From a virus: a stretch of DNA of 35,416 nt. Made by a program: the position numbers and the translations under genes. The notes beneath the pieces are model-generated. The model was not told the DNA's origin. It did not search any database and saw nothing but the letters and a program-made list of their open reading frames with translations. The stretch is from positions 1-35,416 of IMG/VR virus record IMGVR_UViG_3300020195_000004, one strand, 5' to 3'. Positions 23,954-31,789 of the stretch are shown one piece after another. The number at the start of each line of letters is the position of its first letter. Position 1 is the first letter of the stretch.

Positions 23954-24143
23954 TGAAAAATACGATAAGCTTCCTACACCAGACTTGCTTAATCATCTAC
24001 TGGAGTTTGAGGCTAATGATTACGCTATCATTGTTACTGATACTATCTGGTTTTCGTATAATGCGCTCCGTAGGGAATTACAGAAGCGTGGTGAGTGGAC
24101 AAAGACATGGCAAGAAGAACATCATAACCCTCATAAAGAATAG
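23940..24143 (+). CDS. hypothetical protein, 67 aa
   Basis: Overlaps the HNH gene by 14 bases. Acidic and aromatic, single helix pair (TPDLLNHLLEFEANDY; YNALRRELQKRGEWTKTWQEEHHNPHKE). No family recognised. Its end touches the next promoter; the stop codon lies four bases before TTGACA. Confidence 0.65.
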   Translation: MELYSEKYDKLPTPDLLNHLLEFEANDYAIIVTDTIWFSYNALRRELQKRGEWTKTWQEEHHNPHKE

Positions 24144-24146
24144 TGA

Positions 24147-24175
24147 TTGACATAAGCGGTATGGTGTGCTTTAAT
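24147..24175 (+). promoter_or_regulatory. leaderless promoter of the nucleotide-metabolism operon
   Basis: TTGACA at 24147-24152, 17-bp spacer ending TGTGC, TTTAAT at 24170-24175. Exactly six bases (TACAAC) separate the -10 from ATG 24182, the same distance as at the protease gene. Transcription should start at or within a base or two of the ATG. Confidence 0.7.
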
Positions 24176-24181
24176 TACAAC

Positions 24182-24484
24182 ATGAAGGCAGAACGGTTCA
24201 ATGAATCAAAGCCAAAACTTAGTATATTATTAGAAGCGTCACACGCACTTAATGGCGCAACAAGGGTGCTAGAATACGGCACGAAGAAGTATGCTCGTGC
24301 TAACTGGAAGAAGGGTTTACCTGTTACAGAGATATCCGACAGCCTACTCAGACACCTCATGGCATATACCAATGGTGAGGATTTAGACGAAGAGAGTGGC
24401 TTACCCCACGTAGACCACGTACTTGTAAATGCCCTGTTTCTAGCTGAGATGGCGCACTATAAGGAATGGGATGACCGCATCTAA
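24182..24484 (+). CDS. dATP/dGTP diphosphohydrolase-like protein (DUF5664 / MazZ N-terminal type)
   Basis: 100 aa from ATG 24182, chosen because it lies six bases after the promoter; an upstream GTG at 24143 is inside the promoter. The family pattern is strong: KPKLSILLEASHALNGATRVLEYGTKKYARANWKKG, SLLRHLMAYTNGEDLDEESGLPHVDHVLVNALFLAEM. Conserved His/Asp/Glu pairs (LLRH, GEDLD, HVDH) are likely metal ligands. In phages such enzymes remove purine dNTPs to shape the nucleotide pool. Whether this phage has modified DNA is not shown. Confidence 0.82.
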   Translation: MKAERFNESKPKLSILLEASHALNGATRVLEYGTKKYARANWKKGLPVTEISDSLLRHLMAYTNGEDLDEESGLPHVDHVLVNALFLAEMAHYKEWDDRI

Positions 24485-27267: not shown

Positions 27268-27295
27268 TTTGCAATTAAGATAAGTATGCTATAAT
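27268..27295 (+). promoter_or_regulatory. promoter of small RNA 5
   Basis: TTTGCA (27268-27273), 16-bp spacer, extended TGC-TATAAT (-10 at 27290-27295). A second TATAAT at 27249-27254 with TTGCGA 15 bp upstream may be another start. Confidence 0.6.
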
Positions 27296-27301
27296 GAGTA
27301 C

Positions 27302-27341
27302 AGCTACAGAAAGCTCGCCCGTTCATTTGGACGGGTTTTTC
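27302..27341 (+). ncRNA. small RNA 5, about 40 nt
   Basis: Starts near AGCTACAGAAAGCTC and ends in a strong terminator: GCCCGT, loop, ACGGG (27317-27335), then TTTTT. Like small RNA 4 it is little more than a 15-nt tail plus terminator. The tail sequence GCTACAGAAAGCTC is repeated 71 bases further on. Confidence 0.5.
27303..27316 (+). repeat. 14-bp direct repeat GCTACAGAAAGCTC, copy 1
   Basis: Identical to 27374-27387. Copy 1 forms the 5' tail of small RNA 5; copy 2 continues with TTTCGG so that GAAAG and CTTTC can form a small hairpin. Confidence 0.7.
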
Positions 27342-27373
27342 TTTATCTTAATTACCCCCTACTTGAACTATCT

Positions 27374-27387
27374 GCTACAGAAAGCTC
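27374..27387 (+). repeat. 14-bp direct repeat GCTACAGAAAGCTC, copy 2
   Basis: Second copy, without a promoter or terminator of its own. The stretch 27342-27460 around it holds no gene that I can support. Confidence 0.65.
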
Positions 27388-27460
27388 TTTCGGTTAAATC
27401 TATCTTATCCTACATTTGACATCATTACAATAGCCATAAGTGGCATGTGCATATCCTGTG

Positions 27461-27497
27461 CAAAATAAACAGCCTCCAAGTGTGAAGCTGAGAGGCT
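27461..27497 (-). terminator. terminator of the reverse RNA
   Basis: On the minus strand AGCCTC, a 14-nt loop, GAGGCT and then GTTTATTTT. No T-run follows on the plus strand, so it is one-directional. Confidence 0.7.
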
Positions 27498-27678
27498 GAA
27501 TGGTTAGTTAGATAGCTAGGTGGGTAGCTACCATCACGAGAGGGGTATTTGACCCAAGGTGCGATCGTACTGACAAGCACGATATAGCTACATACTAGCA
27601 CAAGCGGTATCACAAGTAAATAGACCTCCGTTAGAAAGGATTATTCTTATAAAAGAGTAAATCACACGGAAGTCTATT
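27461..27678 (-). ncRNA. reverse RNA with SD-hiding hairpin and antisense loop
   Basis: About 218 nt on the minus strand from a strong promoter to an intrinsic terminator (AGCCTC 27476-27471 and GAGGCT 27497-27492, then TTTATTTT on the minus strand). The 5' end folds at once: 27679-27666 pairs with 27631-27618 (14 bp, one mismatch). The 3' arm contains GGAGG. The 34-nt loop contains ATAATCCTTTCTA, complementary over 13 nt to leaders at 27765 and 31777 and over 12 nt at 29766. A 62-aa frame (GTG 27613) follows GGAGG, but its stop (27425) lies beyond the terminator. Confidence 0.65.
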
Positions 27679-27684
27679 TGCCTA

Positions 27685-27713
27685 ATAATACCATTATAGA
27701 GGTTAGTTGTAAA
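27685..27713 (-). promoter_or_regulatory. promoter of the reverse RNA
   Basis: On the minus strand TTTACA (27713-27708), 17-bp spacer, extended TGG-TATTAT (-10 at 27690-27685). Only five bases separate its -35 from that of the early promoter (27719) on the other strand, so the two start divergently from one control region. Confidence 0.75.
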
Positions 27714-27718
27714 TATAG

Positions 27719-27777
27719 TAGACAAGCACTAGCAGGTGTGGTACAATTAAGGTATATCAATCAGTAGAAAGGATTAT
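27719..27777 (+). promoter_or_regulatory. early promoter 1 and shared leader
   Basis: TAGACA (27719-27724), 17-bp spacer AGCACTAGCAGGTGTGG, extended TGG-TACAAT (27742-27747). The leader ends ATCAGTAGAAAGGATTAT, a strong ribosome site right before ATG 27778. The same spacer motif (CACTAGCA) and leader occur at 29720 and 31731, so the three promoters probably answer to one regulator. Confidence 0.8.
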
Positions 27778-27909
27778 ATGAACAAAGACCAAGCATCGGT
27801 TATTGAATTACTAATCAGGAAGTCTGCACTTAAAGATGTAGAAATCTGGATAAACGAACAGTACGTTATGATAGCAAAAGCAATAGAGGCGATTGAGGGG
27901 AGCAAATAA
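27778..27909 (+). CDS. small helical early protein, 43 aa
   Basis: First gene after early promoter 1, with the strongest ribosome site (TAGAAAGGATTAT). Helical throughout (DQASVIELLIRKSALKDVEIWINEQY, MIAKAIEAIEGSK). TAATG overlap with the next frame. Its leader is a target for the reverse RNA at 27461. Confidence 0.75.
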   Translation: MNKDQASVIELLIRKSALKDVEIWINEQYVMIAKAIEAIEGSK

Positions 27910-27995
27910 TGACAATACCAGTAACTATAGTAAACAGCACGTTCCCACTAGGAACAACAGATGGTCAGAGCTACACCGTAAAGCCGATAGCGTAA
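27909..27995 (+). CDS. possible 28-aa early peptide
   Basis: TAATG at both ends (27909 and 27995). MTIPVTIVNSTFPLGTTDGQ continues to SYTVKPIA; a beta-rich mini protein. GAGGGGAGCAAATA is the ribosome site. Short but in the coupling style of the operon. Confidence 0.5.
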   Translation: MTIPVTIVNSTFPLGTTDGQSYTVKPIA

Positions 27996-29719: not shown

Positions 29720-29748
29720 TTGCAAAGCACTAGCATGTGTGCTATTAT
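29720..29748 (+). promoter_or_regulatory. early promoter 2
   Basis: TTGCAA (29720-29725), 17-bp spacer AGCACTAGCATGTGTGC, extended TGC-TATTAT (29743-29748). The leader GTCAGTAGAAAGGATTA (29761-29777) matches the other two early leaders, but no ATG follows; the sequence runs into a structured region. Confidence 0.75.
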
Positions 29749-29754
29749 GAATAC

Positions 29755-30145
29755 AAGTTAGTCAGTAGAAAGGATTAACCGAGGAGCATTCAAGTATAGT
29801 TCGTCATAGACAACTTAACTCCTAAGCAGAACATTAACAATTCATACAGTTACACGGCAACACAATCTGGCAAGGGTGACTTCGCTAGACCCGACTACAT
29901 TACAAAAGCTGTAAAGCTACATACCAGCGTATAAAATACTGTTACGTAAGATGAAAGGGGGATAAAAAGATTGTGTTGGCATCTAACTGTATGGATTGCA
30001 TATTAACAACTCAGTGGTCAGCAAGCGGACAACAAACCAAGTTAGATGTGCAACCCATCTCAAGCTACACACTCACACACATATACTATACATACGAGTA
30101 GCGAAATTGCGTCAAGGTGTCTGCTCGCTGACCACTGAGCTTAAA
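29755..30145 (+). ncRNA. structured RNA of about 390 nt
   Basis: No usable start codon lies between the promoter and 30158. Pairings: AGGAG 29782/CTCCT 29819; AACACAATCT (29859-29868) with AGATTGTGTT (29968-29977), perfect; GTAT/ATAC near 29930; ATCTAACT (29981-29988) with AGTTAGAT (30040-30047), which crosses the next stem and so would form a pseudoknot; CTCAGTGGTCAGC (30010-30022) with GCTGACCACTGAG (30127-30139), extended by GCGGACA/TGTCTGC. An open 44-codon stretch (29803-29934) lacks a start. Could be a stand-alone RNA or a long 5' leader of the next gene. Confidence 0.6.
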
Positions 30146-30157
30146 CGAAAGGACTAT

Positions 30158-30780: not shown

Positions 30781-30787
30781 CTTAACA

Positions 30788-30892
30788 ATTCAAGTGTGTG
30801 GTGTTGGTAGTAAATGCCAGAAGCAACTCGAGAAGCAACACTAGGTTATGCCACAGGGGTGACAGTTTGCTGCCGACACCATACACTTGAAT
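30788..30892 (+). ncRNA. 28-bp stem-loop between genes
   Basis: Bases 30788-30815 pair with 30865-30892 without a bulge: 23 Watson-Crick pairs and five G-U pairs. The 49-nt loop is GCCAGAAG...GTGACA. No T-run follows. It ends 20 bases before the next ATG, upstream of the ribosome site AATAAGGAGAACACA. GTGTTG on the 5' arm could alternatively pair with CAACAC in the loop, so two folds are possible. Confidence 0.7.
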
Positions 30893-30912
30893 AAACTAAT
30901 AAGGAGAACACA

Positions 30913-31380
30913 ATGACCAAATTAACAAAAGAACAGGCACTCGCTAAAATCGAAGAACTAAAACAATACGTTGACCAAGTAGACAATAAGGTCGAAAAAG
31001 TAGTTGGAATAGCTATTAAATCACGATTTGGAGGCGCTACTATTCTTTACCAATCCACTAAAACCACGATTAGAGAAGCGGTTGAGGAGGCGGTTGCTAG
31101 TGGTGCTAACCTGCGTGGTGCTGACCTGAGTGATGCTAACCTGCGTGGTGCTAACCTGCGTGGTGCTAACCTGCGTGGTGCTAACCTGCGTGGTGCTAAC
31201 CTGCGTGGTGCTGACCTGAGTGATGCTAACCTGTTTGGTGCTAACCTGCGTGATGCTAACCTGCGTGATGTTGAATTACAAAATGCCCAGTTTTATGGAA
31301 GAGGCGGAACGCAAATACTCAAACGCTCACAATTACCCGCTTTTCTAGGCGCACTAGGGTTCATAATCGAGGAATCATAA
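30913..31380 (+). CDS. pentapeptide-repeat protein
   Basis: 155 aa. An N-terminal helical region ([28 protein letters not shown]) leads to about eleven pentapeptides of the type A(N/D)LRG or A(N/D)LSD (residues ~64-120). The end ([16 protein letters not shown]) may form a cap. The repeats should form a right-handed quadrilateral beta helix. Some members mimic DNA and bind gyrase; that role here is only a possibility. Ribosome site AAGGAGAACACA. Confidence 0.88.
31101..31270 (+). repeat. 15-bp tandem repeats inside the pentapeptide gene
   Basis: About eleven copies of a 15-bp unit GCTAACCTGCGTGGT. Several adjacent copies (31135-31205) are identical at DNA level; others differ at GAC/AAC and AGTGAT. 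Such identity shows recent duplication or slippage and could change length in 15-bp steps without breaking the frame. Confidence 0.9.
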
Positions 31381-31730: not shown

Positions 31731-31789
31731 TTGTAATAAACACTAGCACATGATACTATAGAGGTAGAATAATCAGTAGAAAGGATTAT
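31731..31789 (+). promoter_or_regulatory. early promoter 3 and shared leader
   Basis: TTGTAA (31731-31736), 17-bp spacer with CACTAGCA, extended TGA-TACTAT (31754-31759). Leader AATCAGTAGAAAGGATTAT precedes ATG 31791. The 13 bases 31777-31789 are complementary to the loop of the reverse RNA. Confidence 0.75.

Follow-up and report, generated by a model that had tools for sequence, protein, structure and literature searches.

A small antisense RNA, encoded on the minus strand of the virus record IMGVR_UViG_3300020195_000004 (35,416 bases, analysed over its whole length and hereafter called the window), is likely to act in trans and to block the translation of two or three early operons of the same phage. 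The anatomy of the RNA, its complementarity to the leaders of these operons, the co-variation of the two across related phages, the presence of second targets and the promoter geometry are shown by sequence, while the transcription of the RNA, translational repression by pairing, a switch and its timing are inferred only.

The window belongs to a tailed phage (terminase, major head protein and Erf-like annealing protein). Approximately 800 bp without long genes separate a short minus-strand gene (26960-26799, encoding 53 aa) from the rightward erf operon. The window proteins examined, which were a subset and not the full set, included no recognisable integrase or repressor. Among cellular sequences the terminase matched only two contigs, a prophage-like one from a Chloroflexi MAG and a small one from a Firmicutes MAG; at 54% identity each, they are too distant for any host to be named. 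The Chloroflexi contig (L293, 143 kb) carries its terminase relative on an apparent prophage, which adjoins tRNA-like repeats and an apparent site-specific integrase (both read by eye). Elsewhere in the window, 24143-24484 encodes the N-terminal domain of a dATP/dGTP diphosphohydrolase (PF18909, E 6e-25), a possible hint of modified phage DNA. The features of the RNA locus and of its putative targets are as follows.

27685-27713, minus strand: RNA promoter (consensus scan, 10/12) with TTTACA (27713-27708), a 17-nt spacer and the extended -10 TGgTATTAT (27690-27685)
27463-27678, minus strand: small RNA of about 216 nt (predicted ends; fold z -5.5 using those ends)
27618-27679, minus strand: 5' hairpin with a 14-bp stem (27679-27666 with 27631-27618), in the MFE and centroid folds
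27632-27644, minus strand: anti-SD segment AUAAUCCUUUCUA, the putative pairing site, exact complement of 27765-27777 and 31777-31789
27515-27599, minus strand: branched middle domain of the predicted fold, unique to this phage and its 97%-identical relative
27461-27498, minus strand: intrinsic terminator of the RNA, stem at about 27498-27470 and then TTTATTTTG
27719-27747, plus strand: early promoter TAGACA-17-TACAAT with TG, back-to-back with the RNA promoter, 5 bp between the -35 boxes
27729-27734, plus strand: spacer motif CTAGCA (possible operator) in this early promoter, also at 29730-29735 and 31743-31748
27765-27777, plus strand: target leader 1, SD TAGAAAGGATTAT, directly before ATG 27778 of the erf operon, rank 1 of 39 window leaders
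29766-29777, plus strand: third site TAGAAAGGATTA, 12 matching bases, behind the promoter 29720-29748, without a usable start codon
31777-31789, plus strand: target leader 2, SD TAGAAAGGATTAT, before ATG 31791, rank 2 of 39 window leaders

The RNA is predicted to start at about 27678, and the extended -10 layout of its promoter recurs in nearly all relatives. Folding of 27683-27461 (minus strand) gave -68.2 kcal/mol (z -5.3), an energy equalled by none of 200 dinucleotide shuffles, which gave -47.0 ± 4.0. One pair of the 14-bp stem is G-U, and the plus strand would have an A-C mismatch there. The anti-SD segment has a mean unpaired probability of 0.69, compared with 0.40 for the remainder of the RNA. 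That such an RNA is made remains an inference, there being no expression data and every RNA end being predicted.

The 13-mer TAGAAAGGATTAT occurs in exactly three copies in the window (27632, 27765 and 31777, all on the plus strand) where 0.00 would be expected in shuffles, and a single further copy with one mismatch lies at 29766. The second target leader has its own promoter, TTGTAA (31731) to TACTAT (31759), whose similarity to the first within the window is not outstanding (rank 9 of 38). While CTAGCA alone is no rarer than chance in the window, its placement in all three promoters is telling. The three leaders are also alike beyond the paired block (CAGTAGAAAGG...), and therefore something besides this RNA must also conserve them. 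The site at 29766 resembles a leader but has no evident gene behind it; it is kept in the nearly identical relative, where it also lacks a start codon, and could perhaps serve as a decoy for the RNA. 

A preliminary description of this region had proposed a minus-strand promoter, a folded RNA and a terminator, which held at about 27498-27461 for the terminator by consensus scan and fold; its 14-bp stem held in both the MFE and centroid folds, and so did its complementarity of 13 nt to 27765-27777 and 31777-31789 and of 12 nt at 29766. Its placing of the pairing block in a hairpin loop held only in part, the segment being mostly and not wholly unpaired in the predicted fold, and the claim of three early leaders as targets likewise, the third having no start codon. 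The further claim that the loop copies nine bases of the 16S tail remains inferred because the host is unknown.

Relatives were found with three queries: the Erf protein, the terminase and a 28-aa peptide (MTIPVTIVNSTFPLGTTDGQSYTVKPIA, 27909-27995 in the window) that is encoded before erf and, with an LGTTDG core, is conserved there in several relatives. Homologous regions were identified in contigs L004, L005, L006, L007, L119, L123, L125 and G001, the last being 97% identical to the window across 365 bp of the RNA region; L124 has a sequence identical to L125 in the homologous region. L186, with a 76% terminase match, was recognised by complementarity and is thus not an independent case. The comparison set therefore comprises ten contigs including the window, one of them nearly identical to it and one found via the feature itself. 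All nine related contigs (eight besides the 97%-identical one) carry a minus-strand RNA candidate at the same place upstream of the operon, starting approximately 80-105 nt from the first start codon. The predicted RNAs are 77-101 nt long in eight relatives, which lack the branched middle domain, and 216 nt in the window and G001. A hairpin, an anti-SD segment just 5' of its closing arm and a terminator are present in 10/10 RNAs, with hairpin and terminator merged into a single hairpin in L007 and L125, whose terminators were identified by eye in the sequence and fold. In all ten, the anti-SD segment is paired less than other parts of the RNA (unpaired 0.62-0.80 against 0.31-0.48). The RNA and early promoters stand back-to-back in the relatives, with 33-54 bp between the -10 boxes, and most of them have an extended -10 and a 17-nt spacer; the weakest assignment is that of the minus promoter in L125. 

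When terminator-linked RNAs were scanned genome-wide against all leaders without constraints, the result was too noisy for members to be found, since most genomes yield strong chance pairs, and therefore single matches outside this layout mean little. A constrained scan convincingly flagged none of the other terminase relatives (G004, G005, G009 and G013-G024), although absence is not established, and it found no such RNA in phages sharing the exact 16-nt leader CAGTAGAAAGGATTAT.

Support for pairing also comes from differences between phages. The leader bases following the SD core read ...GGATTAT in the window, GGAATCAACATG in L004, GGTTATC in L005, GGTTACA in L006, GGGATTGCAATG in L007, GGAATATCAATG in L123 and GGGTACA in L186, and the RNAs differ in step with them. 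Cognate pairing exceeded swapped pairing to a degree reached by only 6 of 100,000 permutations with whole RNAs and 3 of 100,000 with loop segments. RNA ends and loops had been picked in knowledge of the leaders, and for this reason the test was run again on a fixed interval (minus strand, 85-260 nt upstream of the start codon) that left no choice of RNA ends; the result was again 6 of 100,000, and intervals of other sizes gave 14 and 7 of 100,000. The same intervals on the plus strand gave 7,074, 57,932 and 5,284 of 100,000, such that only the minus strand shows a cognate excess, and random leaders each paired with their own upstream region gave z -0.28 ± 0.88. L119 and L125 have weak cognate pairing and contribute little to the test. 

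Transitions in the first three bases after the SD, or at other positions of the duplex, leave G-U pairs in place in eight contigs (G001, L004, L005, L119 and L186, and the second targets of L006, L123 and L125), and in rows aligned without gaps no transition in the first three bases after the SD breaks pairing. This reading was made from alignments in which L004 and L123 were allowed single bulges; it lends support but does not amount to a formal test. A count of all mismatches (17 keeping G-U, 25 reverse and 46 other) was uninformative because it overran the duplex and indels shifted the register; only the duplex and the first three post-SD bases were read. Net pairing energies of the adjacent pairs, after opening costs, range from -5 to -12.7 kcal/mol. 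Leaders that vary while the loop fails to follow them would have refuted the preliminary description; the reverse is observed, adjacent leaders and upstream RNA differing together across divergent relatives. Its trans-acting RNA that shuts off early genes is accordingly supported by comparison, with RNA production, repression and the "early" timing still inferred, and its divergent control with the early operon is supported by the conservation of the back-to-back promoters.

When leaders with ATG or GTG starts were passed through an SD filter and ranked, the leader adjacent to the RNA came first or second of 25-48 in all eight contigs where it passed. Most contigs have a second RNA-matching leader 3-7.5 kb downstream on the same strand, heading an operon and often with the same promoter-spacer motif. 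The positions of these second leaders, which lie 3.3-7.5 kb downstream, are listed below.

Window: 31791
L004: L296:224
L005: L297:16284
L006: L301:17195
L007: L302:9462
L119: L189:13861
L123: L304:17128
L125: L306:7729
L186: L309:5175

Because complementarity was the criterion by which these second targets were chosen, there is some circularity in their ranks, and independent support comes only from their positions and promoters. In L004, L005, L006, L007, L123 and L186 the promoter of the second leader ranks first or second of 24-47 in its similarity to the adjacent promoter. The spacer motifs common to the promoters differ from phage to phage and are sometimes inverted (L005, L125 and L186); judged from their sequence they may be operators. 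Two features bear on the assignment to trans-acting sRNAs: a promoter and terminator of its own, which are predicted in the window and nearly all relatives, and conserved complementarity to the SD of messages it does not overlap, which is met by sequence.

The mechanism we favour can be put as follows. Transcription of the RNA would start at the promoter that stands back-to-back with that of the early operon and would lead away from this operon, and the RNA would consequently have no overlap with its targets, so that even the adjacent one could be reached via a short match only. It would fold into its 5' hairpin and stop at its own terminator, presenting in the loop an anti-SD copy extended into phage-specific flanking bases. 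Roughly 8-16 bases would pair with the SD and spacer of the first erf-operon gene, and with a second operon head, keeping ribosomes off both. As the RNA and early promoters have their upstream space in common, simultaneous use of the two by RNA polymerase is improbable, and such competition would make the locus switch between early expression and silencing. A collision of two polymerases at these promoters is to be expected, as inferred from their geometry. Whether the role of the RNA is immunity, early shut-off or copy control is undecided.

Three other explanations were considered. The one that survives best, though unlikely, is a shared DNA element, i.e., that the block in the RNA locus is another copy of the promoter-leader unit or a protein-binding site and that no RNA pairing takes place. 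In its favour the block is oriented as the leaders are, and CTAGCA lies at a similar upstream distance (37 versus 34-36 nt). However, the flanks of the block are mostly unlike the leaders, the block sits in the RNA loop beside a promoter and a terminator in 10/10 contigs, pairing in the duplex is retained through G-U pairs and the cognate excess is found on the minus strand only. The upstream resemblance is also unexceptional, with 64 of 1768 genome windows scoring as well, and on the same count a decayed promoter-leader unit inside the RNA locus was rejected. 

Also unlikely, to a similar degree, is a 5' leader with an attenuator, in which the transcript would be the regulated start of a longer minus-strand message, such as that of the 53-aa gene. 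A minus-strand gene does lie downstream in the window, and in L007 one starts just past the RNA, but in the window some 500 nt separate the RNA from that gene, and in L005 the terminator adjoins the end of a plus-strand gene, leaving no minus-strand gene directly after it; this explanation also leaves the complementarity to divergent leaders unaccounted for. A sponge, whereby the RNA is real and pairs but the leaders titrate it away from other (host) targets, would suit the promoter and SD without start codon at 29766 and a general anti-SD core, for which host messages could be partners, but is very unlikely given that most matching leaders stand directly before the start codons of operon heads, as direct repression predicts.

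We return to direct repression in trans, for which the nearest known system is the c4 RNA of P1 and P7 (Rfam RF01695). This RNA is cut by RNase P from a longer transcript and has three stem-loops with two pairing loops, a' and b', the latter covering a ribosome site (PMC5320573); its target is the ant mRNA (PMC12197685), and loop and target differ together between P1 and P7, which do not cross-react (PMC5320573, PMC12197685). The window RNA resembles it as a phage antisense RNA whose loop pairs with a phage ribosome-site region, with a phage-specific co-variation that is met here by sequence only. It differs in that it has a promoter and a terminator to itself, carries a single anti-SD segment, would act on two or three operon heads and is arranged divergently. 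The three stem-loops are not seen either, most relatives folding into one 5' hairpin plus terminator or, in L007 and L125, into the merged hairpin. Processing by RNase P is made unnecessary by a promoter directly before the hairpin but is not excluded. At the gathering score, no Rfam family, c4 included, was matched by the window or by any of eight related loci, and in a search of 27440-27790 up to E 5 c4 was again absent, with only unrelated eukaryotic families far below threshold. With no Rfam match and its own promoter and terminator, the window RNA is not a member of c4. The arrangement was not found described in the literature searched, of which coverage was partial.

The sar RNA of P22 is a phage RNA of 68/69 nt whose pairing blocks the translation start of a phage gene (PMC12197685), a likeness which for the window RNA is inferred; whereas sar acts on ant alone as reviewed, the window RNA meets several operons via a short SD-centred match. 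As to an antirepressor gene, which would be the target of a sar-type RNA, the product of 27778-27909 had no match in Pfam and the proteins behind the second targets had no confident match in PHROGs. OOP and aQ of lambda are antisense RNAs on phage control genes listed as cis-acting (PMC12197685), in contrast to the window RNA, which does not overlap its targets. Bacterial sRNAs have C-rich unpaired stretches able to meet several SDs, RoxS of B. subtilis being one example (PMC8216469); the window RNA differs from these in being phage-encoded, with targets in the same phage genome to which its flanks are tuned.

Few antisense RNAs of phages have known targets, and most of those that do come from enterobacterial phages. 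The comparative evidence here, with an RNA and several targets changing together across divergent phages, makes phage-specific RNA silencing of early operons directly testable. It also offers a rule by which more such RNAs can be searched for: a divergent promoter, a hairpin and an anti-SD segment tuned to an SD >90 nt away. A bolder reading, less likely than not, is RNA-based immunity in an uncultured phage clade, in which one small RNA, from a promoter competing with the early promoter, would silence all early operon heads, and in which loop-leader pairs would diverge between phages, confining the action of each RNA to its own kind. If true, this would be a multi-operon counterpart of c4 heteroimmunity, operating alongside operator-like motifs that likewise vary among the phages.

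Some further elements were observed in the same part of the window. Downstream of the 29720 promoter and the start-less leader at 29766 are two large hairpins (29825-30150, plus strand; joint fold z -6.4), followed by a long, nearly perfect intergenic hairpin at 30784-30900 (plus strand, -49.3 kcal/mol) and by a gene of the early region (30913-31380) for a pentapeptide-repeat-like protein with ANLRG repeats. On the other side of the RNA, 27268-27345 (plus strand) contains a promoter, TTTGCA-16-TATAAT, and then a transcript of about 50 nt with a terminator. The motif GCTACAGAAAGCTC at 27303-27316, within this predicted transcript, recurs at 27374-27387. The layout of 27268-27387 is found, with other motif letters, at the same place in L004, L123, L124 and L125, and may represent a second small RNA.
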